Virus record (IMG/VR): IMGVR_UViG_3300032053_014236
Span: 1 to 36,129 of that record
Strand: one strand, 5' to 3'
Origin: a virus
DNA: 36,129 nucleotides
Part shown: piece by piece, positions 2,035 to 35,409 of the stretch
How positions within the stretch are numbered: position 1 is the stretch's first letter
How the letters are laid out: every line of letters begins with the position of its first letter
Notes under the pieces: model-generated
Told to the model about the DNA's origin: nothing
Databases searched by the model: none
The model's input: only the letters and a program-made list of their open reading frames with translations
Translations under genes and position numbers: made by a program

Positions 2035-2303
2035 AGGTGCATCCTGATGATACTCCAAACGATGGCTCCCGCAGCCAATACGAAAGATATGGCAACAGGA
2101 TAAACAAAATACTTCTGGAATTTATCATGATGGGCCAAATGGTTACCGAGTGTGATCTCAACCGTATTCAACGTCACAGACATGGCAGTCAATTTGTCTG
2201 TCAATTTGCCACAAATACTATCCATCCGATCCATGAGGACATCACCCCTGTCTGCCCTGATATCATCCCTGGCTTCTCTGCTGGTTCTGAGATCGTTTTC
2301 CAT
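2031..2303 (-). CDS. Small coiled-coil and single-membrane-segment protein, holin/antiholin (XhlA)-like topology
   Basis: A 90-residue protein with a charged N terminus (residues 1-28), a predicted amphipathic coiled-coil stretch (about 29-60) and one C-terminal membrane segment (about 66-86, FVYPVAISFVLAAGAIVW) ending in a short basic tail. This order, helix then C-terminal anchor, resembles XhlA-type hemolysin/holin accessory proteins used in host lysis, but sequence identity is not strong enough to be sure. The start codon overlaps the stop of the giant gene (TAATG), so it is coupled to it and is the last gene of the late block, a common place for lysis genes. No endolysin is visible nearby. 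Alternatives are a small membrane anchor for an ejected protein or a superinfection-exclusion factor. Confidence 0.6.
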   Translation of the reverse strand: MENDLRTSREARDDIRADRGDVLMDRMDSICGKLTDKLTAMSVTLNTVEITLGNHLAHHDKFQKYFVYPVAISFVLAAGAIVWSIIRMHL

Positions 2304-5300
2304 TAGAAGTTTCCCTTCTGCTTATACTCCATGTAACTCTCCTCCGGCTTCATCGCCTGCCGCATGGACGCCATATTAATCGGAGATATAAGACCTTTGA
2401 ATTTCATTACATCCAAATTGTATTTTTGGATGTCTCGCCTGATGGTACCAAACTCGCTTCCCGTTGACGCGGTGCGAAGGCGTTTCAAGATATCCTGTTT
2501 TTGTTTGCTGTAATGTTCCTGCATGTTCGAGAAGGATCTACGTTCCTGGGATACCTCGGCCATCCTGGCCGGCCTAAATCCAATGGCCTGTCCAACCGTT
2601 TCCGTTGTGGTAGGAACAATCGGACGACCCTTTTCATCAAGTATGGGCTTCCCGGATGCCGTCCGGACACCCTGCTTAGATAGCCTGGCTGCCTTCAGGG
2701 GCGCTTCTGCACCGACCGGGGCCATTGCCTCGACCATCCTGGCGTAATCTCCGTTTGAGGCGCTATTTACGGCCTGTACGCCCTTATCTATGAGCCCACC
2801 CCATACTCCAAAGACAGAATCTTGGACCGGTCCACCAATTCCCGGGATGGGAATGCCAATCTTGATGGATCCGGACAAGTCAAATCCTATGAGGGCCGGC
2901 AAACCTTGCATCCCAACATCGGCCAACATCTCACCACCGACTTTCTTCATGGCTTTGCGCATGTTGGATCGATATGGCACGCCAAACATCTTCTCTGCCT
3001 CTTCCAGGATGTCATCGAGGAATGGAAACGCTGCGAGCCCACCGAAGAGTACGATAAATGCAAGAGACCGCATCATCATGTCCAGGGCAATTCGGTCTTC
3101 CTTGCTCTTCATAAAATATTTCAATGATAACAGATAGTTATGTCTGAAACTCTGGAAAACGTACCCAAGTCCCATGACCTTACCGGCTGCAGTACCATCA
3201 CGAAGCAACTGCGGGGTATTGCTGGCGCCATAAGCGTAATGGGACATATTCACGAATTCCCGGGATGCCAGGAATGCCTGATCCGCGTTCATCCCGGCCT
3301 TGGTATACATCCTGTATCCGGCCAGGTAGGCCACCTTCCGGTTGAACCTTTCCATACCAGCAAACGGAAGGGACATGATATCGAGAACCTTCTGAAAAGA
3401 GTTTTTGGCCCAGCTCCCCGAGATCCTACCCCTGATCGAGTTGAGGTAGTTGGCCATGGTCTCACCCTTTTCCCAAGCTACCTGCAACATTGCTTTTTCG
3501 GATGCAGAATAATTGCCGGATACCACATCCTTCATGGCCTTCATGATGTAGGCAGATCCACTCCCCTTGACCTTGTTATCCTTCATCAAGCGGGATAGGA
3601 TCGGAATGGCGGTCACGAAATTCTGTGTCATCTGTACCGGGACCATCCGTAGGTTGGCGGCGAGATACCACGTGTACGGGATGGTCTTCAGGGCGTTGAT
3701 TTTTCGATCGATCGAATCAGGGTTACGCATCATATCGCGCATGTACCGCGTGGCATATTCGTACAAACCCTGTTGGCCTGTCGCATGAATATCTGTCAGA
3801 GCATCGTGAAAGTCAAAAGCGGCTTCCAACTTACTCATACTTCCGGCGAGCCCCTTCATGTAATTGACGAATACCTCTTCGAGATGTTCGGTTTGATACC
3901 CCTTGATTGCCTCGCCCACGCGCCGGTGCATGTACTTCTGTTTGAATCCACGGGCCGCAATTTCATCATTGACGGCTCCAAGTACGTGCTTCATCAGTAA
4001 GTCGGCCTGTTCGGAGTCGATATAACCACCAGATTGGGCTCGTTCCATGGCCTTTTGCAGGAAGGCTTCCGTGACCGGTATATCCAAAAATCCAAAGATA
4101 TGTTCCGGCACGCCGCGTTCCATGGTCTTTTCCACAGTGAGATCAGGATATGCCCTGGTCATTTCCATGCGGCCCATCTCGGCCTGGGTGGCATTCTCAA
4201 AACGACGAGCATCAATATTGTATTTTTCTCCATCCGGACCCATCTCGAAAGCGCGGACCACATATTCTCCGCGACCACGTTCACGGGGTAAATAAAATTC
4301 GATGGAATTAAGATCCTGTTCCAACTTAGCAATATCTGCCAATTTGGTTTGTGTATATTTCACAGCCGATACGAACGCTTTTTGCACCTTAGCATCGGCG
4401 CTCACGATCACCGTGGTAGGATCAATATTCTCCTGTACGACACGATTCATCTCTGCGAACCATGGTTGTTTGATATTAATTTTGAATGTGATCTCCTTGA
4501 GCCGTCTGGTAGCAAACTCAATGGCCTTCTTGAATCCATTTCTCCACCCATTATAACCTGCGACTTCATCCGGAGTCAAATTACGTCCAATCAATTCCCT
4601 TGCCTTGGTCTGGAGACGTTCCGCCGTATCCAGGTAAATGCCCTGGTTGTCAGACCAGACGATAATCTTATTCAATGCATCTCGGTTAAGATTCTCTTTC
4701 AGAAATGGATTATCACCTGTGTTTGTGATCGGATCCTTGAGCAATAAGATGGTATCACTACTTCTTTTGTCCTGTCTATCCAACTGAACATTGAACATTC
4801 TCTTGAATTCGGGATGTTCAACACCAATCCAGAACGGGTTAGATAACATGGCCTCGGTGGCCTTCAGGTCCCTCATCGGCTGTTCCGCAAAATTTTTATT
4901 CTTGTTGCGCATGGCGGTATACAGATTTCCAAAATTCAATACCGTATGGGCTGCACTGGTATCGTCAGGAGTGGCACCAGTACGCATAACGAAACGTTCC
5001 GTAGGCAGGCCTGTCTTCCATGCACTGGCCTCTGCCAACTGTCTCAGGGAAGCATACCTTTGCATTTCCCCTTTGAAGCGATCATCGGCGATCAACTGCC
5101 TACTGCGATTTAGGTAGACCTGAATGTCAGTTTCGGTTAGATTCATCTGAACACCGAAGATCTTATAAACCATATCTTTCACCAATGTCACGAATTCACG
5201 CCATAACATTGGGTCAGATCTAGTCTCCGCGAGTTGCGCGATCTTCTCTCCGGCCGCAATCATCTTACTGTCCTGGCTTCCCGGGATAAGACGATAGGCT

Positions 5301-8300
5301 GTGTAGATTTCAGATAAACCCTCCTCGCCACCATACAGTTTAAAAACCTTGCTATAGAAGGGAGCCAATCGTTTAAAACCGATGACTCTTTCAATCCCAA
5401 AGTGTCCGAACAATTCGTGGGCAATAGACTTATTGAGATCGGTATGACTCGTCTGATTGCCAGCGATGATCCATAATGTCCTTGTTTCTCGATCAAAAAA
5501 CGCCTTATCGGTGGGTTTTAAATTGACATTGGCCCTACGGATCTGTCCTGGTATGGCGTCATAATTTTCTACGGCCATCCCCCGCAACGCAGCCTTGGGA
5601 ATATCGATCAAAATATTATCCAGGGATTGCTGCACTTCCTGGAGGGCAATGCCCTTACCTTGGATCTCGGGTCCAGCAAGGCGGCGCTCGCTCATCCTGA
5701 ACCTCCCCTCCGCTAATAGTTTCCCTTCCTCTATAGTTCTGGAGGTTCCTATTTTGAGTGCTCCTATGCGACCTTTTGCATCAGCACCCCATTCCGATAC
5801 CTCGAATGTGACACCCTTTCGCTGAATAATATATTTGTCTTTTCCGTCCACAACACCAACGTATAATCCCCTGTCTTCGGCATGCCAGGCTACGTTCTTA
5901 TTTGCACTGACCTGCCCAACCAACCCCCGCCTCTCTGAGAAGCGGGGTAGTATAGGAGCGGGGCTGGTCTGGACATTGACTAATTGATTTTCCGGAGTTT
6001 GGAGCTGTTCTAATCCAAACTTGAAAATAGCATCGGAAAAATCTCTATGCAGATCCTCATTCGTATGGAATGATTTCTCGATTTTATTTTCATCGGCATC
6101 GGTCAGAGAAGTTGATTTGATCACTTCCGATAACGGTGTGCCTTTGTAGACGGCCAAGTTGTAGGCGTTCACGTGGGAAATGATATCACGGTTCTGGTAC
6201 AGGAAATTCAACGTATTCTGATACGTCTGTACCGTCTCCTCGGGCATGCCAATGATGATGTTCGGCACTACCTTGAGACCATTCTCGCGAGCCCGCTGCA
6301 TAGCCTGATCAATCTGTTGTTTCGTGTGCGGTTTACTGTAATTTTTTAGGATATCATTATTGTATGACTCTACCCCTAACTCAACATATTGAATGCCGGA
6401 CTTGCCCAGGAAGTCATCATTCAATTTTACAAATTGAGATGCCGTGGTCTGAATAATGAATCCCTGGAAATCGGGATTGGCAGCTTTCATCTCGTCATAG
6501 ATCTCTGCCAACATGGTATAATTCGACGCCTGCCCGAATGTCTTGTCATTCAGATAGACCAACCGGGCTCCAAGACGCTTAAACGACTCTACCTGGCGTC
6601 TGATATTATCAGGTGTTGTTTCCTTGAGGGATCCGTGGGGTTTCACATCACAGAATTTGCAATTGAATAGGCAACCCTCTGATAACACTAACCTTGGGAT
6701 TACTTCACTTCCTTCGAAGTGTCGGTAATTTGTCCCGGGATTGAATTTGTATCCTTCGTTACGAACAAAATCTGCCATATTGTCATAAATGGCTACATTC
6801 GTGGATGCACCAAAGAGCGCCCTAAGATCCACATAGCCACCAACGGCCACCCTACCCTTGTAACCATCGGCGATCTGCTTGACCATATCCTTATTGACAT
6901 CCAGGACAGAAAAAGCCACCGTTTTGTACTTGGCGTCGCTCAGGAATTTTATGGCCTCATCAATATTCCTCACGACATAAACATCGGTATTGGGCATACT
7001 GTTGGCAGCCACCGAAATCCATTGTGGTATTTCCCAAAAGTCTCTCGGGTGTTTAAACCCTGGCCTACGATTATTATATAGTTCATCATAGTACGCCCGG
7101 TCTATACCTGTCTGCGTTTCCTTGGGGTTGATCAATTCATTGGAAATCTGTACGAGAAGAACGCTGTTCGCATTGGTGTTACCCTTGCCTTGGCGTACCC
7201 ATACGTTACCCTGACCGGGCTCACCCTCTCGGTACAGCATGGATGGGGTGTGACCACCTATGGATATAGGATTATTGGGTCGGTTCTGTTCCGGGGCCAA
7301 TATCTGTTTTCCATCCAGGGTTTCACCACCAATCATTTGTTTTGGTTTTGAAATTAGACGGCTGGCTACTCCTAATCCGTTGTACCACCGTTCTTCGCTA
7401 TCTTCTTGAAGGACCTGGTTGCCTCCAGCGCGGCCTGCGAGCTGCCCTCCGGTGGCCTGAAGAGCGTTATTGCCTTGCCGAAATCGAGACCCGCCTTTTC
7501 CCATATTTCCGAAATTGTTCTGTAACTCTGTAAGAGCGTCTCCGTGTTTTTCATAGAATAACCTTCCTTCGTTTTCAAGACGAGTTAGTTGAGCATGGGT
7601 CATCTGAGTATAGAGCCTGGCCACTTCCAGGGCAAAATCCTCATTGTGTTTAGACACCCTACGATGAGCCAATTCATGCACAAAAGTATGTGTGAGGTTG
7701 GACGACATGGCCTGCAGCTTTGGATATGTTGCACCTACAACCGATTTCCATTCATCCGTCATGATCAATGCATGGGTGATAGCGAATGGGTTCAGGGCAA
7801 ATATCTCATGTCCGGTAACCTTCGGATTTGATCTAAATCCGTGTACCTTGGGATCCACCGTGATGGCCAGATCTAATTTTCCTCCACCAATCTTATCAAC
7901 GATCACCTGGAATGATTGGAAGAGATTGGCCATGTCGGAGATCAATTCCTGATGATTCATAACCAATGCTTTTGCAGCATCGAATTCTGCCTGATCAACG
8001 AATGGTATAAGCACTCTAGTACCATTGATGATAGGAGAATTTTGGATCATGGCAGCGAAGGCTTTCTTAGAGCTTTCGTATTCCTCGGAGTTAACCTCGT
8101 TTATTTTTTCATTAATCCTGGCCTCAACCCCCTTGCGTATTTCTTCGTTCATCGTTGTTCTATTACGCAGGAATGGGTAATTGATGGAAAGTACGTCTGG
8201 TGTTTTGGTAAAATTAACAACAGCTTTCCAATTGGCCACCTTGCGAAGACCGGTCGTATTATACGCATATTCAGGGTCCATTCCAAATAGAGCCAATCCT

Positions 8301-11300
8301 TTATTGAAGGTCTCTACGTGAACCTTAAAACCCTCATTCCATCCTTCGTATCGGTTTGGATTGTCATCGGGTATAAAATATACATCCAGGTCACTTCCCC
8401 CAATAGATAACTTCTCGGATGAAAATATCTGCTTTAGCGTGTCGAAACCATACGATGGAACCAACTCACCGTTATGCGTAAAATTCACGGTATGGACAAA
8501 CACACCCTTTTTAGTGTATCTCTCGAATGCAGAATTCACATCAAAAACACTGATGGCGTATGCATTGTCTTTGGATGCATCGTCGGAGTTGTTAAAAAAT
8601 GACATCTCAAATGTAGTGCCACTATGTTCCGTAACGTCCTTTTCAATAGACAATAATGGAGATCCGGCACCTTTCACTCCAAAGAATTGATCCTTCGCTC
8701 CAGACAGGACAGTCTTAACACCATTTTTAACGGTAGTCACCACTGTTCTACGTGGAGTCAATAGGAAACCGGCCTTCGCCATGCCATACCCACCTCGGCT
8801 TTCCGTACCCTCCTTACCCTTGGCCCCCAATCTCATCAGGTTCTGTTTCAATTGGGTCGTTGACATCCCCACTCCATTGTCTTTGATAATGACAACGGTT
8901 TCAGCTATTCCATCACTTCCCATGTTGAGCTTTGTGGAAATATCAATGCGGGTAGCACCTGCGTCAAGTGCGTTCTGAATAGTCTCATTGGCGATGGTGC
9001 CGGCGAGATCATTGTTCACTATATCCTTACTGATCGTCTGTAGAAGCAGGGTTTGATCAACACCCAATTTCACTTCCTGTGTGGCAATCATGTTGGATGT
9101 CAAATCTTCCTGTACGGCCGTCAGTTCTCCGGTGGCTTCATTATAAATCAATTTTCCGTATGGCCTTTGGATCTCATATATGCTGGTGCCAAGTTTCCCT
9201 GTTCCAACCTGAGAAACCTTGCCACCTAATTCTCCGGTATGTTTTTGAGATTCAGCTTCTAATCTGTTTTCAAAAACAATACGTTCTTGTCTTGGCAATA
9301 CGATGGCAGCCTGATCATCCGAAAGTTTCACTTCATAATCATATGTTATACCGCCACCTAATTCCTCGGCGGCCATGCGCACTTCGGAGTAAAATGGATT
9401 TGCTATTGGTGCTGGCTGTTGCTTGATTTCGGCCATGTTTCTACCGTACCACACATCAAGCAATTCCTGATCTGAAAGGGTTTGTCCCGTGGCCACATCT
9501 AGTTCGTTGATGGCCATGGCAATGCCCTGTTCTCGTCCGTTCAATCCGGTCCGTTCATGACGGAAGCGATCTATGTTGTTGATGTCAACGGTATCAGCTC
9601 CCGGTATCCCCTTAGCCATAGGATGCATTTCGGTGGGGATAGTTTCCGGCGTAGCACCTGTCGATGGAGTTTCCGGTGTGATAACATTCCCTGGTTTACC
9701 AACTTCGGGTATTTCCGGGGGGATCACGTCCACATCCACGGGGGCGGGAGGAGGCTCAGATAAATCGGGTGGGGTTGGCCCCTTGGGGGTCTCCCGGGGA
9801 GGAGGTTCGGGAGGAGTGGCTTCAGGACCTTCCCCACCTTCAGGCTTTTCTCGTTGAGTTAAATCCAGTGGTACTTGTTCAAAAAACTGAGGAACAACAC
9901 CCTTGGTCTCAATCCAATGATAATCAAGTTTCTGTTGTTCCATCTTGGGTTCGAGAACACCCTTGAATTTATCGGGCACCTCGATACCACGCATTTCAAA
10001 ACTCTTGGTAGGTTGTACCTCTTCCTTGAGATTGATGAGTGGCGTACCGGGTTCGGCCAATGCAAACTTAGGACCCATTTCAATGGGTTTTTGCAATTCA
10101 TCTGTTCGTTTGCGCCATTGTTCGGCCTCGGGCAATACGGCCCCCTGCCATTGTTCCGGCCCAAGATTTAATGTCTGTCCCGGTCCCAATTTGGCCTGGG
10201 CCTGACGAATGTTTTCCTGAATCTGTGCGTTCTTTAAATTATCAACGTGTTGTGCAAAGGATGTTTGCAGGGATCCCACATCCATGGGCTGATCCATATC
10301 GATATGCTGACCCTGAAGGATATTCATTACGGCTACGCCACGCCATGCCTCTGCGACTTGCTCACCGAACGTACCCTTGATAAACTTCAGCATATCTTCA
10401 GCTTCGGCAGACCGCTGTTTCATGACATTGGGATCTGTCAGGTCTGTATTTGGATTGAGGGCAGCTCCAACCTTATTTGAAAAAACATGTGGGGCTACCG
10501 CACCAAGACCACCTGTCAATAATGAAAAAATGGTAGTGGGGATGATAACTTGTTTGGCCTCTTCCCATGGTTGGGCTTCTGGACGAACACCTGATTCCTT
10601 GGCCGACGTGGCTTCCAACCATTGTTGTCCGATTTCGGTACCAACCTCTGTACCTATTAATTCCGGAATGGATAATAGAAATTTACCGAATGTTGGTTTT
10701 AATACTCCGGCTACAGTTTTTGCGGCCGGGAGTATAGCCATTTTTTCTAATGCTCGCACGCCATACGTAGTGCCCTTGGATAGTAATCCACCAAGAGCGA
10801 CGTTGGCAAGAGATTCACCTAACCATTCAGTCGCACCTCGTTCTAAGGCTTGTTTATTAATCGTTTCCTCTGAAATGGATGGCAACCCCTGAGCCATTAA
10901 TTCCTGATTCTTCTTATATCCCTCTTCTCTGGCTTGGGAGTATTCAGCCATACCAAATCCAACGGCACCTAGCTGGCCCATGACCTTGGATCCCAGGGCA
11001 GCCCCGGCTATAGCTCCCGGAACGTTACCGATTAATCCACCAATGATGCCACCCCCCACTGCACCAATGGCAGTCGGTAGTAATGATGGGACGGCCATCT
11101 TACCGGCCTGATAAAATTGTTCACCAACGGCGGTCGGCTGAGGTTTTTCCTCTTCAACATTGCGCATAGTGGGTTGTATGACCCCGCCCGCCATATATCC
11201 GGGTGCCCTGTAGACCTCTGTGGCCATTTCTGGCAGTTCCTTGGTGATACTAGCCCCTAGACCCTTCATTAACCCTGTTACGGCCTCTACGGGGCCTCCT

Positions 11301-11629
11301 AGCTTCGGGGCAGGGGGTACAACGGGCTCATGCACTGCGGGCGGTGCAGGGGGGAAGAATACACCCCTGTTAATATCCTCGATTTGCCGATCAATGGCGC
11401 TGGGACCGGGGGTAAACTGAGGCTTGTTGAGGCGTTCATGAGGCGTTGGTACTACCGGAGGGGCAACGGGTTGCTGCATCTCGGGGGGAGGTACGGGTTT
11501 AGCCACCGCTGGCGTTGCCTGCCCTGGAGGCGTCACCACCCCCATGGACGATTCAAGTCCTCCAACCGATGTGTCAGAAAGTCCGTATTGCTTATTCAGA
11601 TCTTCGATCTGCTTATCAATAGAATCCAT
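2303..11629 (-). CDS. Giant polyvalent protein: GHKL ATPase, two zincins, radical-SAM domain, phage polyvalent C terminus
   Basis: A single uninterrupted 3108-residue protein (start ATG after GAGGAGACC). Order: proline-rich N terminus with two IDxQIEDxN repeats (residues 4-12 and 79-87); glycine-rich hydrophobic stretch (187-227); proline-rich linker (about 590-670); GHKL ATPase (about 855-1010: E882/N885/D888, DNGVGM at 917-922, RGGYGMAKAG at 945-954); zincin HELAH at 1318-1322 with a further His at 1328; B12-binding-like fold (about 1545-1610) joined to a radical-SAM core with C1653, C1657, C1660; two RFSERR-like motifs; second zincin HELFGH at 2071-2076; a LPRERGRGEYVV motif (about 2445) like the PLxRFG element; and a helical, partly membrane-like C-terminal region (about 2650-2880). 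Such giants are known as phage polyvalent proteins and are thought to be ejected with the genome to modify host targets. Radical-SAM chemistry within one is, to my knowledge, exceptional. Confidence 0.85.
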   Translation of the reverse strand: MDSIDKQIEDLNKQYGLSDTSVGGLESSMGVVTPPGQATPAVAKPVPPPEMQQPVAPPVVPTPHERLNKPQFTPGPSAIDRQIEDINRGVFFPPAPPAVHEPVVPPAPKLGGPVEAVTGLMKGLGASITKELPEMATEVYRAPGYMAGGVIQPTMRNVEEEKPQPTAVGEQFYQAGKMAVPSLLPTAIGAVGGGIIGGLIGNVPGAIAGAALGSKVMGQLGAVGFGMAEYSQAREEGYKKNQELMAQGLPSISEETINKQALERGATEWLGESLANVALGGLLSKGTTYGVRALEKMAILPAAKTVAGVLKPTFGKFLLSIPELIGTEVGTEIGQQWLEATSAKESGVRPEAQPWEEAKQVIIPTTIFSLLTGGLGAVAPHVFSNKVGAALNPNTDLTDPNVMKQRSAEAEDMLKFIKGTFGEQVAEAWRGVAVMNILQGQHIDMDQPMDVGSLQTSFAQHVDNLKNAQIQENIRQAQAKLGPGQTLNLGPEQWQGAVLPEAEQWRKRTDELQKPIEMGPKFALAEPGTPLINLKEEVQPTKSFEMRGIEVPDKFKGVLEPKMEQQKLDYHWIETKGVVPQFFEQVPLDLTQREKPEGGEGPEATPPEPPPRETPKGPTPPDLSEPPPAPVDVDVIPPEIPEVGKPGNVITPETPSTGATPETIPTEMHPMAKGIPGADTVDINNIDRFRHERTGLNGREQGIAMAINELDVATGQTLSDQELLDVWYGRNMAEIKQQPAPIANPFYSEVRMAAEELGGGITYDYEVKLSDDQAAIVLPRQERIVFENRLEAESQKHTGELGGKVSQVGTGKLGTSIYEIQRPYGKLIYNEATGELTAVQEDLTSNMIATQEVKLGVDQTLLLQTISKDIVNNDLAGTIANETIQNALDAGATRIDISTKLNMGSDGIAETVVIIKDNGVGMSTTQLKQNLMRLGAKGKEGTESRGGYGMAKAGFLLTPRRTVVTTVKNGVKTVLSGAKDQFFGVKGAGSPLLSIEKDVTEHSGTTFEMSFFNNSDDASKDNAYAISVFDVNSAFERYTKKGVFVHTVNFTHNGELVPSYGFDTLKQIFSSEKLSIGGSDLDVYFIPDDNPNRYEGWNEGFKVHVETFNKGLALFGMDPEYAYNTTGLRKVANWKAVVNFTKTPDVLSINYPFLRNRTTMNEEIRKGVEARINEKINEVNSEEYESSKKAFAAMIQNSPIINGTRVLIPFVDQAEFDAAKALVMNHQELISDMANLFQSFQVIVDKIGGGKLDLAITVDPKVHGFRSNPKVTGHEIFALNPFAITHALIMTDEWKSVVGATYPKLQAMSSNLTHTFVHELAHRRVSKHNEDFALEVARLYTQMTHAQLTRLENEGRLFYEKHGDALTELQNNFGNMGKGGSRFRQGNNALQATGGQLAGRAGGNQVLQEDSEERWYNGLGVASRLISKPKQMIGGETLDGKQILAPEQNRPNNPISIGGHTPSMLYREGEPGQGNVWVRQGKGNTNANSVLLVQISNELINPKETQTGIDRAYYDELYNNRRPGFKHPRDFWEIPQWISVAANSMPNTDVYVVRNIDEAIKFLSDAKYKTVAFSVLDVNKDMVKQIADGYKGRVAVGGYVDLRALFGASTNVAIYDNMADFVRNEGYKFNPGTNYRHFEGSEVIPRLVLSEGCLFNCKFCDVKPHGSLKETTPDNIRRQVESFKRLGARLVYLNDKTFGQASNYTMLAEIYDEMKAANPDFQGFIIQTTASQFVKLNDDFLGKSGIQYVELGVESYNNDILKNYSKPHTKQQIDQAMQRARENGLKVVPNIIIGMPEETVQTYQNTLNFLYQNRDIISHVNAYNLAVYKGTPLSEVIKSTSLTDADENKIEKSFHTNEDLHRDFSDAIFKFGLEQLQTPENQLVNVQTSPAPILPRFSERRGLVGQVSANKNVAWHAEDRGLYVGVVDGKDKYIIQRKGVTFEVSEWGADAKGRIGALKIGTSRTIEEGKLLAEGRFRMSERRLAGPEIQGKGIALQEVQQSLDNILIDIPKAALRGMAVENYDAIPGQIRRANVNLKPTDKAFFDRETRTLWIIAGNQTSHTDLNKSIAHELFGHFGIERVIGFKRLAPFYSKVFKLYGGEEGLSEIYTAYRLIPGSQDSKMIAAGEKIAQLAETRSDPMLWREFVTLVKDMVYKIFGVQMNLTETDIQVYLNRSRQLIADDRFKGEMQRYASLRQLAEASAWKTGLPTERFVMRTGATPDDTSAAHTVLNFGNLYTAMRNKNKNFAEQPMRDLKATEAMLSNPFWIGVEHPEFKRMFNVQLDRQDKRSSDTILLLKDPITNTGDNPFLKENLNRDALNKIIVWSDNQGIYLDTAERLQTKARELIGRNLTPDEVAGYNGWRNGFKKAIEFATRRLKEITFKINIKQPWFAEMNRVVQENIDPTTVIVSADAKVQKAFVSAVKYTQTKLADIAKLEQDLNSIEFYLPRERGRGEYVVRAFEMGPDGEKYNIDARRFENATQAEMGRMEMTRAYPDLTVEKTMERGVPEHIFGFLDIPVTEAFLQKAMERAQSGGYIDSEQADLLMKHVLGAVNDEIAARGFKQKYMHRRVGEAIKGYQTEHLEEVFVNYMKGLAGSMSKLEAAFDFHDALTDIHATGQQGLYEYATRYMRDMMRNPDSIDRKINALKTIPYTWYLAANLRMVPVQMTQNFVTAIPILSRLMKDNKVKGSGSAYIMKAMKDVVSGNYSASEKAMLQVAWEKGETMANYLNSIRGRISGSWAKNSFQKVLDIMSLPFAGMERFNRKVAYLAGYRMYTKAGMNADQAFLASREFVNMSHYAYGASNTPQLLRDGTAAGKVMGLGYVFQSFRHNYLLSLKYFMKSKEDRIALDMMMRSLAFIVLFGGLAAFPFLDDILEEAEKMFGVPYRSNMRKAMKKVGGEMLADVGMQGLPALIGFDLSGSIKIGIPIPGIGGPVQDSVFGVWGGLIDKGVQAVNSASNGDYARMVEAMAPVGAEAPLKAARLSKQGVRTASGKPILDEKGRPIVPTTTETVGQAIGFRPARMAEVSQERRSFSNMQEHYSKQKQDILKRLRTASTGSEFGTIRRDIQKYNLDVMKFKGLISPINMASMRQAMKPEESYMEYKQKGNF
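3000..3700 (-). other. C-terminal polyvalent-protein helical region (LPD38-like) of the giant protein
   Basis: Residues about 2650-2880 hold several long helices, including WYLAANLRMVPVQMTQNF, ERFNRKVAYLAGYRMY, a YVFQSFRHNYL segment and a near-transmembrane stretch (AFIVLFGGLAAFPFL). The pattern is like the large polyvalent protein-associated domain 38 that ends many ejected phage giants. The assignment rests on pattern memory and could be refined by profile search. Confidence 0.45.
5300..5480 (-). other. Zinc metallopeptidase-like module 2 (HELFGH) of the giant protein
   Basis: SIAHELFGHFGIERVIG carries HExxGH (H2071, E2072, H2076), preceded by a short beta hairpin (RETRTLWIIAGNQT). This layout recurs in phage polyvalent proteins as a putative zincin. 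Downstream helices containing IQVYLNRSRQLI also match that context. Confidence 0.65.
6000..6990 (-). other. Radical-SAM domain with B12-binding-like N-terminal part, inside the giant protein
   Basis: The iron-sulfur motif CLFNCKFC (C1653, C1657, C1660) follows an IPRLVLSEG lead as in B12-binding-type radical-SAM enzymes. After it come YLNDKTF, a VELGVES strand, KPHTKQQIDQAM, and NIIIGMPEET, which match the order of conserved strands in the radical-SAM barrel. Before it, a Rossmann-like segment (AFSVLDVNKDMVKQIADGYK, then VAVGGYVDL) resembles the B12-binding fold but lacks the DxHxxG cobalamin motif, so cofactor binding is doubtful. Confidence 0.8.
7600..7720 (-). other. Zinc metallopeptidase-like module 1 (HELAH) of the giant protein
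   Basis: FVHELAHRRVSKHNEDF has the HExxH zinc site (H1318, E1319, H1322), and H1328, six residues after the second ligand, followed by a DF pair. This resembles the HELxH...NHxxxF pattern of SprT/YgjP-like zincins. It could process the giant itself, virion partners or host proteins. Confidence 0.65.
8600..9060 (-). other. GHKL (Hsp90/gyrase/MutL-type) ATPase module of the giant protein
   Basis: The three Bergerat-fold boxes are present in order: an N-box with E882, N885 and D888 in NETIQNALDAG; the G1 box DNGVGM; and a glycine-rich lid RGGYGMAKAG. The residues after it (TVVTTVKNG) resemble the HATPase_c_3-type proteins. Conserved catalytic and ATP-contact residues suggest an active nucleotide-binding site. 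What it drives is unknown. Confidence 0.8.
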
Positions 11630-33114: not shown

Positions 33115-34647
33115 TTAAGTAAAAGCACTCCATCCGCCACTCTCAATCGGAGCGGATGTCCTATCTGGCCATAACCCCTGTGCCGGTGTGAGCAATGTCA
33201 ATGCGTCTTCGACTGCCATACAAGCATACTGACAAGCATCGTGAATATGGCTCACCAAATTTTTCTCGGGTTTATCGGTATACATTTCCTTACCGACCAC
33301 CTGAATGCGTCTCATTCGGTACTCACCGCGAAACCCCTTGATCAAATGCATGCAAGACGGATCAATCAACATCCCGTATCCATATTTCCCGCAAAATCGC
33401 ATGAGTAAACTTTCTACTGCGGTGAACCGTGCAGACAAAGAGTTTGATCTCGCTGGAGTTGCCTCCATCTTCAGGATCTCGCTGATCTCCTGAAAGGAAG
33501 TACGCTCATCGGTATCCGACCTCTTAACACCCGCAGGGTCACCTGTCAGGATTAACTGAGCTCCATAATACTTAGACACAAGAAATGGTCGAATCACATC
33601 CTTGATCATCAGTCGGGTGCATGTGTCAGTGATTAAAAATTCATGGAGAATCCTCATCTGCCCCCACGGCATAAATTGGCAAATGATCGTAGCCTGGTCA
33701 CGACCCGTGTTATCAAACCCAATAATGAGTGGATATTGTGGGTCTGCCTTGAGTGTTTCTTTCGATACGTGTTTCGAAGCGTCGAACTGAGGGTACACCG
33801 CTTTACCATCAGACACATAGCCGTATTCTCCATCTACGTAGACGCTGATAAATTCCTTGTCCTGTCCGGCCGCAAGGTTGGCATAGTAACCGATCGGAAG
33901 AAACGGAAGGTTCTCGGCCTGTTCCGATCTCCCACTTGGCTGTTTCCACAGTTTTGTGTACGGTACCCCCAAGACTGCGTTACACTTGGGGCATCTTCCG
34001 TTTTCAAAAAGAATGATACCGCCCTGACGATCCTTGCATGTGATGCAATATTGTGGACGTTGGATCTCGAACATTTTGTAAAACCAATGATCAATATCCG
34101 GAGGGTTTGTGTCCATCCAAATGCCATGCCAGGTGGCCCCTCCGGATCCGTCTGCGTTTTTAGGCGGGTATCGTCCAATACGCCCCCGCATTGCGTTTAC
34201 GATAGGAAGTGCAATTTCACGTGCTTCATTGAAGAAAGCACCCGTAAGCTCCAGTGATAATAGATTACGGATATCTTGAGGTTTATCGAGAGCCCTAAAA
34301 TGAATAGTCGCCTCAACAGGGTGACCATCCTCTGTTTGAATTTTGTTAATGACAAGATCATAATCGGTTGCCCTCCAATCGCCAAGCTCCAGGATCCACT
34401 GATGAAATGTTGGAATGGTGGTATCTCGAAGTTGTGGGTAAGAGTTTCTTACAACACCCCACCTAGACCGACTAATACCATCTGGCATGGGGGATTGTCG
34501 CATAGCTCGCTTAACAATCTCAATGGGTCCACATCCGGTAGTCTTGCCGGACCCAAAGGGACCCATGACTGCTCGGAGCATAGAGTCGTCCTGCGAAAAC
34601 GCCTTGATCGTTGGGACCCCTTTATATGAATACTCACGTACCGACAT
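33115..34647 (-). CDS. Terminase large subunit with an inserted zinc ribbon
   Basis: A 510-residue packaging motor. The ATPase has a Walker A GPFGSGKTT (residues 29-37), a Walker B-like LELTGAFFNEA with E141, and a coupling-type MDTNPP at about 179-183. The nuclease half has FDNTGRDQA (D312), LILTGDPAG (D370) and HIHDACQYA (D470), the three expected acidic positions. Between them lies CITCKDRQGG...RCPKC (C201, C204, C219, C222), a zinc ribbon that is not part of the core enzyme. The start uses GGGGGAAC before the ATG. It lies 40 bases after the tRNA-Tyr gene. Confidence 0.9.
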   Translation of the reverse strand: MSVREYSYKGVPTIKAFSQDDSMLRAVMGPFGSGKTTGCGPIEIVKRAMRQSPMPDGISRSRWGVVRNSYPQLRDTTIPTFHQWILELGDWRATDYDLVINKIQTEDGHPVEATIHFRALDKPQDIRNLLSLELTGAFFNEAREIALPIVNAMRGRIGRYPPKNADGSGGATWHGIWMDTNPPDIDHWFYKMFEIQRPQYCITCKDRQGGIILFENGRCPKCNAVLGVPYTKLWKQPSGRSEQAENLPFLPIGYYANLAAGQDKEFISVYVDGEYGYVSDGKAVYPQFDASKHVSKETLKADPQYPLIIGFDNTGRDQATIICQFMPWGQMRILHEFLITDTCTRLMIKDVIRPFLVSKYYGAQLILTGDPAGVKRSDTDERTSFQEISEILKMEATPARSNSLSARFTAVESLLMRFCGKYGYGMLIDPSCMHLIKGFRGEYRMRRIQVVGKEMYTDKPEKNLVSHIHDACQYACMAVEDALTLLTPAQGLWPDRTSAPIESGGWSAFT

Positions 34648-34687: not shown

Positions 34688-34772
34688 TGGTGGGGAGGAG
34701 AGGAATCGAACCTCCTCAGCGCTAGGCTACGGCTTTACAGGCCGCTAGACTCACCACCTGTCCAACCTCCCC
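34688..34772 (-). tRNA. tRNA-Tyr (GUA), CCA encoded
   Basis: Acceptor GGGGAGG pairs fully with CCTCCCC, A73 and an encoded CCA follow. The anticodon loop CTGTAAA gives GUA with U33 present; the anticodon stem has five pairs including one wobble. A long variable arm (about 13 bases) fits a bacterial type II tRNA-Tyr. The T arm holds TTCGATT. Confidence 0.9.
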
Positions 34773-34773
34773 A

Positions 34774-34847
34774 TGGGGTGGCCGGTCGAATTCGAATCGA
34801 CTCCGAAAGGGCCACGACCTTTCATGCTACCATTACAACACGGCCAC
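34774..34847 (-). tRNA. Probable tRNA-His (GUG) with unusual positions, CCA encoded
   Basis: The acceptor GTGGCCG pairs fully with CGGCCAC, with C73, the His discriminator base, and encoded CCA. The T arm is perfect (GTCGA-TTCGAAT-TCGAC) and the anticodon stem has five good pairs. The loop TCGTGGC gives GUG but with C at position 33 instead of the near-universal U, and the base before position 1 is U rather than the G expected for tRNA-His. The D stem is weak (T10-T25 mismatch). It lies one base from tRNA-Tyr. It may be a degenerate or specialised His tRNA. Confidence 0.7.
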
Positions 34848-34850
34848 ACT

Positions 34851-34925
34851 TGGAGCCGATGAGAGGACTTGAACCCCTAACCCGAGGTTTACAAAACCCC
34901 CGCTCTACCATTGAGCTACACCGGC
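34851..34925 (-). tRNA. tRNA-Thr (UGU), CCA encoded
   Basis: Acceptor GCCGGTG pairs with CATCGGC (one wobble); U73 and an encoded CCA follow. The D arm (GCTC / GAGC, AATGGTA loop) and T arm (TTCAAGT loop) are normal. The anticodon loop TTTGTAA gives UGU. It starts directly after the stop of the HAD gene and ends three bases before tRNA-His. Confidence 0.9.
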
Positions 34926-35252
34926 TTACTTTTCACCGACGAATTTTCCAGAATTTGGGATCACCTGGCGAGCCCGGTCGTCCCAAAGCTCAAGGCATTC
35001 AAAATCCTTGACGTTGGTAATTTCTAAGGGGGGCAGGCCTATTTTGGAAAGCCAAGCCTTTATGGCGTCTGTGGCGTCCTTCCCCAGCCCCGCTCGGGCG
35101 GTGAATATTTTGAAGCGCTGCCCCCTCTTAATTTCAAACTTGATTCGTTCGACCATCCATCGGATAGGTTCTCCGATGTACGTGGGACCCCTCCATTCAT
35201 CATAGAACGCAAGAGTACCATCTAGGTCTACTCCGATCCAACCATTACTCAT
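34926..35252 (-). CDS. HAD-superfamily phosphatase
   Basis: A 108-residue protein with the HAD signature GVDLDGTLA (D9 nucleophile, D11), motif II in FTARAG (T51), a lysine near NVKDF (K83), and motif IV in LWDDRA (D91, D92). The short length without a large cap is like phage 3'-phosphatase or nucleotidase HADs, as in the phosphatase half of T4 polynucleotide kinase. ATG at 35252 is preferred; a GTG twelve bases upstream is in frame. Its end touches tRNA-Thr, so a role in RNA end repair or nucleotide salvage is possible but inferred only from place. Confidence 0.8.
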   Translation of the reverse strand: MSNGWIGVDLDGTLAFYDEWRGPTYIGEPIRWMVERIKFEIKRGQRFKIFTARAGLGKDATDAIKAWLSKIGLPPLEITNVKDFECLELWDDRARQVIPNSGKFVGEK

Positions 35253-35409
35253 TCTTCCATCCACCGGTCGGTACTATCCCATGTTCCTTCATCGCAAGCA
35301 GTCTCACCTGTGCAACGGCGTTCTTCTTACTCGTTGATTTCGCTTTTGTTCCGTGCGGGCTCGTCACTTTGTACTTCCCGCCCTTTGTCTTCGAGATTTT
35401 GTACGGCAT
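35245..35409 (-). CDS. Small basic hypothetical protein, 54 residues
   Basis: A basic protein (MPYKISKTKGGKYKVTSPHG, then KAKSTSKKNAVAQVRLLAM). AGGAG stands seven bases before ATG 35409, so this start is preferred to the longer frame. The pattern PYKxSKxxxGKYxVTSxHGxKAKxTxKxxAxAQVRLL is one I know from small uncharacterised proteins in large DNA viruses and phages. It overlaps the HAD gene slightly and the next gene by 83 bases in another frame. Confidence 0.7.
   Translation of the reverse strand: MPYKISKTKGGKYKVTSPHGTKAKSTSKKNAVAQVRLLAMKEHGIVPTGGWKNE

Follow-up and report, generated by a model that had tools for sequence, protein, structure and literature searches.

Can a phage gene that encodes neither a G at position -1 nor a U at position 33 specify a functional tRNA-His, or is such a gene a remnant, a lure for host enzymes or an artifact? 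The question is raised by a tRNA-His(GUG) gene (positions 34774..34847, minus strand) in the DNA analysed here, hereinafter the window, which is the complete 36,129-base virus record IMGVR_UViG_3300032053_014236, classed as linear and probably a fragment. Comparison of this gene with tRNA genes of other phages and of bacteria suggests that it is most likely a working phage tRNA-His.

The tRNA-His gene and its genomic setting

The gene, 74 nt long including the encoded CCA, was detected both by ARAGORN and by the Rfam tRNA model (RF00005). The initial annotation, made from the bases alone, had recognized a tRNA-His body with C73 and proposed covariance-model scoring as a check; the Rfam model assigns 46.9 bits (E = 4e-7), above the gathering threshold of 29, and a cloverleaf, and ARAGORN reports tRNA-His(gtg) at exactly these coordinates. 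A faster search of the window record with the same Rfam family listed only the neighboring tRNA-Thr and tRNA-Tyr, and not the tRNA-His. The GUG anticodon (34813..34815, minus strand), identified in the sequence and by ARAGORN, assigns the gene to the His isotype, and C73 (34777), read directly and in the ARAGORN parse, is followed by the encoded CCA (34776-34774; the whole 3′ end thus spans 34774..34777, minus strand). Every base pair is formed in the 7-bp acceptor stem and in the anticodon and T stems, which have 5 bp each.

The departures from the usual pattern that the initial annotation listed are all present: C instead of the usual U at position 33 (34816, minus strand; sequence and ARAGORN anticodon placement), U at position -1 (34848, minus strand; read from the sequence), where bacterial tRNA-His genes usually have G, and a poor D arm (34824..34838, minus strand) with a U10xU25 mismatch (34838/34824) and a U13.G22 wobble. 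To these can be added a feature that had gone unmentioned, namely the pair closing the T loop (34789..34797, minus strand), which is A53:U61 (34797/34789) rather than G53:C61. Compared with canonical bacterial tRNA-His, the gene lacks both G-1 opposite C73 and U33; with its U-1, its C73 and at least six acceptor pairs, it belongs to the class of U-1:C73 phage genes, a grouping made in this work; and C33 takes it outside the substrate motif for queuosine insertion (U33G34U35 in a 7-nt loop).

The score of 46.9 bits is the lowest in the array and lies below those of the six other tRNA-His genes that were scored (51.1-62.4 bits: L273 and L152, 51.1 each; Serratia phage X20, 58.5; L144, 59.8; L150, 61.0; Klebsiella phage KP185, 62.4). 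The minimum-energy fold predicted for the bare RNA is not a cloverleaf, whereas that of L152 is one and that of L273 comes close; energy-based folds of unmodified tRNAs are frequently wrong. A 26-base string of the gene had no exact match in the viral contigs, a search from which records very near the window were perhaps omitted.

The gene occupies the middle of a Thr-His-Tyr array on the minus strand. The first member, tRNA-Thr(UGU) (34851..34925; ARAGORN; Rfam, 65.2 bits), is separated from tRNA-His by 3 nt (34848-34850), and the last, tRNA-Tyr(GUA) (34688..34772; ARAGORN; Rfam, 52.1 bits), by 1 nt (34773). All three genes encode CCA, and both neighbors, which had been described as normal, indeed appear so by their scores and by their U33. 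Downstream of the array, also on the minus strand, lies the gene for the terminase large subunit (TerL; 33115..34647; phrog_2, E = 2.6e-24). Histidine codons account for 144 of the 10,609 codons in the 23 larger ORFs of the window (CAU 96, CAC 48); this demand is nothing striking.

Several other genes of the window deserve mention in their own right. Immediately upstream of the array, a 112-aa protein is encoded (34926-35264, minus strand) that bears a weak likeness to two families of phage proteins, phosphoheptose isomerase and polynucleotide kinase. A gene close to the edge of the contig (401-1552, plus strand), which runs opposite to the phage structural genes, encodes a 383-aa protein of the Pfam family BT1 (folate-biopterin transporter; E = 3.5e-26). 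The protein had no match in the phage collection (tblastn, 1e-5), and its gene either belongs to the host, marking a boundary, or is a phage gene of an unusual kind. A 3108-aa protein (2303-11629, minus strand) contains an HSP90-like ATPase domain (residues 882-975) and, at residues 1648-1810, a radical SAM domain (E = 2.6e-20); loci L112, L129 and L214 show weak similarity to it in the region of the latter domain.

Loss of the encoded G-1 is recurrent among phages

The missing G-1 had been taken as special to this gene; the same lack recurs in many phages. Viral contigs were gathered through four tRNA-His pattern scans and two protein searches (TerL and the major head protein), and the tRNA-His set compiled from them counts each distinct gene once, requires six or more acceptor pairs and includes the window; given that the genes were selected by pattern or similarity, the fractions below are not population frequencies. 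Among the matches listed, 133 distinct tRNA-His genes of viral contigs comprise 63 with G-1:C73, 38 with U-1:C73 and 32 with other combinations. In the least biased source, a general U33 scan, U-1:C73 is found in 18 and G-1:C73 in 43 of the 75 genes among the matches listed, and the two D-arm scans of viral contigs gave 2 and 16 of 34, respectively, in one case and 16 and 2 of 20 in the other.

Named phages, which were picked because they resembled a tRNA-His query of phage or host origin, have U-1:C73 in 18 of 20 tRNA-His genes; several of these phages are close kin, three of the E. coli phage genes are identical, and 3 of the 23 named-phage stretches yielded no tRNA-His. The 18 include Aeromonas phages AS4, phiAS4, PX29 and 31, E. 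coli phages WilhelmHis, EC121, EcS1, TadeuszReichstein and DT57C (T5-like), mycobacteriophages ScoobyDoobyDoo, Melpomini and Myrna, as well as Serratia phage X20, Klebsiella phage KP185, Salmonella phage CF-SP2, Morganella phage Rgz1, Enterobacter phage IME523 and Edwardsiella phage PEi20. For two of these, WilhelmHis and TadeuszReichstein, the recorded host is E. coli K-12. The two named phages that encode G-1 are Sinorhizobium phage Phosso (G-1:C73) and Streptomyces phage Lululemon (G-1:A73). When the KP185 gene was used as the query, 53 of 60 records, sampled across the 680 similar ones, could be placed on tRNA-His from their coverage or annotation; the alignment starts at query base -2 or -1 in 52 of these 53, which fits the presence of U-1 in those records. 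With the E. coli tRNA-His as the query, ten rows from T4-like phages (H167-H176) begin at G1 and omit position -1.

A U preceding the mature tRNA is in itself ordinary. Among the matches listed, the leader base -1 is U in 1497 of 2077 distinct non-His tRNAs of viral contigs, and passages of PMC11143913 put U-1 in about 60% of E. coli tRNA precursors and describe tRNA-His, with its 8-bp acceptor stem, as a known exception. Because U is the usual leader base in both phage contigs and E. coli, ordinary RNase P processing is the likely path for the U-1:C73 genes. The A53:U61 pair also occurs in L273, L152, X20, KP185, EcS1 and DT57C; an association of this pair with U-1 was considered and rejected, the counts among C73 genes (4/38 vs. 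3/65) being not significantly different (p = 0.42). In the open-licence literature searched, the parts available make no mention of phage tRNA-His lacking G-1.

Hosts and potential suppliers of G-1

The hosts for which tRNA-His was sampled follow the canonical rule. The E. coli gene (L347) has G-1:C73 and U33, and so do all 18 Pseudomonadota tRNA-His that were matched; they come from a search, with one narrow pattern, of 299 genomes in the phylum to which Vibrio sinensis belongs. The other 281 genomes gave no match, so that position -1 is sampled in the matching ones only. The same pattern with C33 matched none of the 299 genomes. A scan of genome contigs gave one V. sinensis locus, in which ARAGORN finds no tRNA, and a pattern search of that genome produced no match.

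Rescue by phage-encoded enzymes finds no support. Proteins of the Thg1 family were sought in the records of 50 of the 69 U-1:C73 loci and 50 of the 78 G-1:C73 loci and were found in 1 and 7, respectively, in a comparison where record lengths are unmatched and many records are fragments. The lone Thg1-positive U-1 record, L309, contains both kinds of tRNA-His, as does L234 from the U-1 set, and the window record, probably itself a fragment, encodes no Thg1 family protein. Among 14 control genomes, the family was detected solely in Methanosarcina acetivorans; E. coli is among the negative ones, so no such enzyme would be available there to the tRNAs of E. coli phages. Histidyl-tRNA synthetase (HisRS) is similarly rare, with a family match in 1 of 50 records, that of Phosso, whose tRNA-His has G-1. 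Thus, neither a phage-supplied Thg1 nor a phage-supplied HisRS explains the U-1:C73 class.

The Thg1 family proteins are encoded in the viral records behind L102, L173, L176, L178, L185, L219, L290 and L309, and their greater frequency where tRNA-His already encodes G-1 hints that they do something other than add G-1; a Thg1 of Bacillus phage Bc431v3 has been described before (sections of PMC3601020). In Phosso (L329), the G-1:C73 tRNA-His (382-456) adjoins a short gene annotated as histidyl-tRNA synthetase (732 onward), the product of which matches PF13393 partially (model positions 23-141 of 308) and looks truncated. Since some alphaproteobacteria use a tRNA-His with A73 and without G-1, these two genes may constitute a phage-borne matching pair.

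C33 and possible escape from host nucleases

C33 is rare. Among the matches listed, 2095 distinct tRNAs of viral contigs have six or more acceptor pairs, and 40 of these carry C33, the window gene and three tRNA-His from a C33 scan being counted among them. Some of the C33 calls may be ARAGORN misplacements, and related records were collapsed only if base -1 and the tRNA were identical; C33 is accordingly unusual, yet not unique. The C33 scan, a complete search of the viral contigs with one narrow pattern, gave 14 stretches, three of which are tRNA-His by ARAGORN: L144 and L150, both with G-1:C73, and L152 with U-1:C73. A further match, L151, was not counted because ARAGORN gives its tRNA no isotype. 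L152 repeats the entire set of features seen in the window, that is, U-1, C33, A53:U61 and unpaired 10:25, and no resemblance to any window protein was found at E = 1e-4 in the 11.4 kb of this locus that were compared; the combination of U-1, C33 and A53:U61 appears to have arisen in L152 independently. Among the 38 U-1:C73 genes from viral contigs in the matches listed, C33 is confined to the window and L152, and all 18 named phages have U33. The association of C33 with the joint presence of U-1 and A53:U61 (2/4 vs. 2/99, p = 0.007) involves four C33 genes, three of them from the C33 scan, and carries little weight.

One predicted consequence of C33 concerns modification of the anticodon. Bacterial tRNA-guanine transglycosylase (TGT) requires U33G34U35 in a 7-nt loop (sections of PMC4425180), and on this ground the window tRNA is predicted to lack queuosine at G34. 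Were queuosine the target of selection, C33 would be expected in the other tRNAs with GUN anticodons as well; the counts for Asn, Asp and Tyr tRNAs (2/224 vs. 34/1738 for the others, p = 0.42) show no enrichment, and queuosine-specific selection is unsupported. Nevertheless, C33 tRNAs cluster within records, with 17 pairs vs. 5.6 expected (p = 0.0004, shuffling) and, once the His tRNAs are removed, 14 pairs vs. 4.7 expected (p = 0.0024), a pattern that suggests some feature of phage or host behind it. Between two and four distinct C33 tRNAs each are found in L216, L150, L204, L152, L181, L198, L249 and L290.

The clustering is one argument for the proposal that C33, together with altered modification of G34, protects the tRNA from a host nuclease that recognizes GUN anticodons or the U33 loop, so that the phage molecule replaces the destroyed host tRNA-His. 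Resistance to nucleases through changes in the anticodon loop has been published as a hypothesis for phage tRNAs in general (part of PMC10264068), and, of the three records besides the window that have a C33 tRNA-His, L150 and L152 bear further C33 tRNAs. In the tRNAs of Shigella phage Sf14, loop changes affect mostly the first and last loop positions and in one case also the sixth, and in the portion of the source considered, position 33 is not among them (PMC12482277). Against this proposal stand the lack of C33 enrichment in the other GUN tRNAs, the retention of U33 in such tRNAs of the same phages, namely the window tRNA-Tyr(GUA) and the tRNA-Asp and tRNA-Asn of L152, and the fact that no host nuclease is linked to the window. 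Nuclease escape is an unlikely explanation of the gene.

Evidence of structural maintenance

Relatives of the window phage were sought through TerL (3 loci) and the major head protein (80 loci). Of the 83 loci, ARAGORN calls tRNAs in only L009, where a tRNA-Phe falls within the head gene, and L081, which has a tRNA-Ser; it finds none in L007, the closest TerL-bearing relative; many of the loci stop short of the region upstream of TerL, so their scarcity of tRNAs is little informative. In L007, the match to the major head protein comes in two pieces (6448-8337; residues 1-33 and 32-308) with about 0.9 kb between them, which suggests an intron or an inserted element.

The nearest tRNA-His relative that was found, L273, came from a D-arm pattern scan of viral contigs. 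It has U-1, C73, A53:U61 and the same D-arm pairing, the U10xU25 mismatch included, but retains U33. As in the window, the gene is located directly upstream of the terminase gene, and the terminase and portal belong to the same PHROGs (phrog_2 and phrog_332); no window protein matches the L273 locus at E = 1e-4. With the same PHROGs and gene position but without matching proteins, L273 is best regarded as a distant relative. The two tRNA-His genes differ at 17 positions, of which 12 make up six compensatory stem pairs and 5, including position 33, are in loops. That every differing stem pair is a compensatory double change, with no uncompensated one, is the pattern of a maintained tRNA rather than of decay.

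This comparison bears directly on the possibility, raised in the initial annotation, of a once-functional tRNA-His that is shedding conserved positions. C33, A53:U61 and U10xU25 all depart from the consensus, the score is the lowest in the array and the minimum-energy fold departs from the cloverleaf, all of which speaks for decay. However, A53:U61 and the U10xU25 mismatch are common to the window and L273, U-1, C33 and A53:U61 co-occur in L152, and the encoded CCA and the 7-bp acceptor stem are intact. Decay thus is disfavored, the gene showing no visible sign of it, and is quite improbable as an explanation, although it could have begun recently with C33.

An uncharged or slowly charged tRNA-His might alternatively serve as a decoy that absorbs host nucleases or modifying enzymes instead of decoding, as the absence of both G-1, the main identity element, and U33 might suggest; this appears still less plausible given that the anticodon, C73 and the helices are kept, although a decoy could do without some of them. 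Finally, an assembly or base-call error at position 33 of an otherwise ordinary U-1:C73 phage tRNA-His, conceivable for a single contig without a second copy whose nearest relative has U33, is very improbable in view of the C33 tRNA-His genes in three further viral contigs.

A proposed route to function

The reading preferred here, to which we assign a probability of roughly 0.6, is that the window gene is a real, structurally maintained phage tRNA-His(GUG) of the recurrent U-1:C73 class that functions through the following proposed steps. The Thr-His-Tyr array would be transcribed as one precursor, from which RNase P would cleave between U-1 and G1 to yield a tRNA with a 7-bp acceptor stem and without G-1. 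The host HisRS would then charge this tRNA through C73 and the anticodon, with reduced efficiency; that charging is probably inefficient is predicted from the sequence, and is plausible because G-1 is the main determinant for HisRS in E. coli (sections of PMC9976931). C33 would block insertion of queuosine at position 34 and weaken the U-turn, such that His codons would be decoded with unmodified G34, and the tRNA would serve translation during infection, possibly in a form adapted to withstand a host factor that recognizes U33. The initial annotation was thus confirmed in its observations and partly supported in its interpretation. It is possible that the host follows other tRNA-His rules or possesses a Thg1-like enzyme, and this alternative is counted against the preferred reading.

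A broader and more tentative proposition, doubtful at present, is that phages whose hosts use G-1 have more than once evolved or retained a tRNA-His without G-1, in some cases also without U33, because such a tRNA escapes a host system, or a control of charging or modification, that acts on normal tRNA-His. Such tRNAs would be charged independently of G-1, which would be new for a bacterial C73 tRNA-His. E. coli HisRS is the textbook G-1-dependent enzyme. The charging of U-1:C73 tRNAs is directly testable since they recur in laboratory phages of E. coli, and the phages that grow on strain K-12 provide a natural way to test how strictly the G-1 rule holds in vivo and what purpose phage tRNAs serve. 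Taken alone, the window gene is a modest curiosity; the more interesting result is the pattern across phages of G-1-using hosts, where an identity mark regarded as near-universal for tRNA-His is lost from many genes that keep C73.

Comparison with known systems

With bacterial tRNA-His of the G-1:C73 type, such as that of E. coli, the window gene shares the GUG anticodon, C73, the GUGG start of the acceptor stem and CCA, but differs from the E. coli and Pseudomonadota genes described above in having U-1, C33 and A53:U61. Loss of G-1 in bacteria has been described together with A73 in some alphaproteobacteria, C73 being otherwise universal in bacteria and archaea (parts of PMC9976931 and PMC6471195). 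The alphaproteobacterial A73 tRNA-His resembles the window gene in lacking an encoded G-1; it is, however, defined by A73 along with a matching divergent HisRS (PMC9976931, same sections), whereas the window gene has C73. Among phage tRNAs with altered anticodon loops, to which the window gene is similar in this respect, three of the four colicin E5 target tRNAs carry loop changes (part of PMC10264068); the terms "position 33", "U33" and "tRNAHis" are absent from the main text of that source as far as available, and the window tRNA is linked to no nuclease. The closest counterparts are the U-1:C73 genes of phages (L273, the L199 group and T4-like, T5-like, mycobacterial and Aeromonas phages), which share U-1, C73 and the acceptor stem with the window gene, and of which L273 additionally has the D-arm pairing and A53:U61 in common with it.
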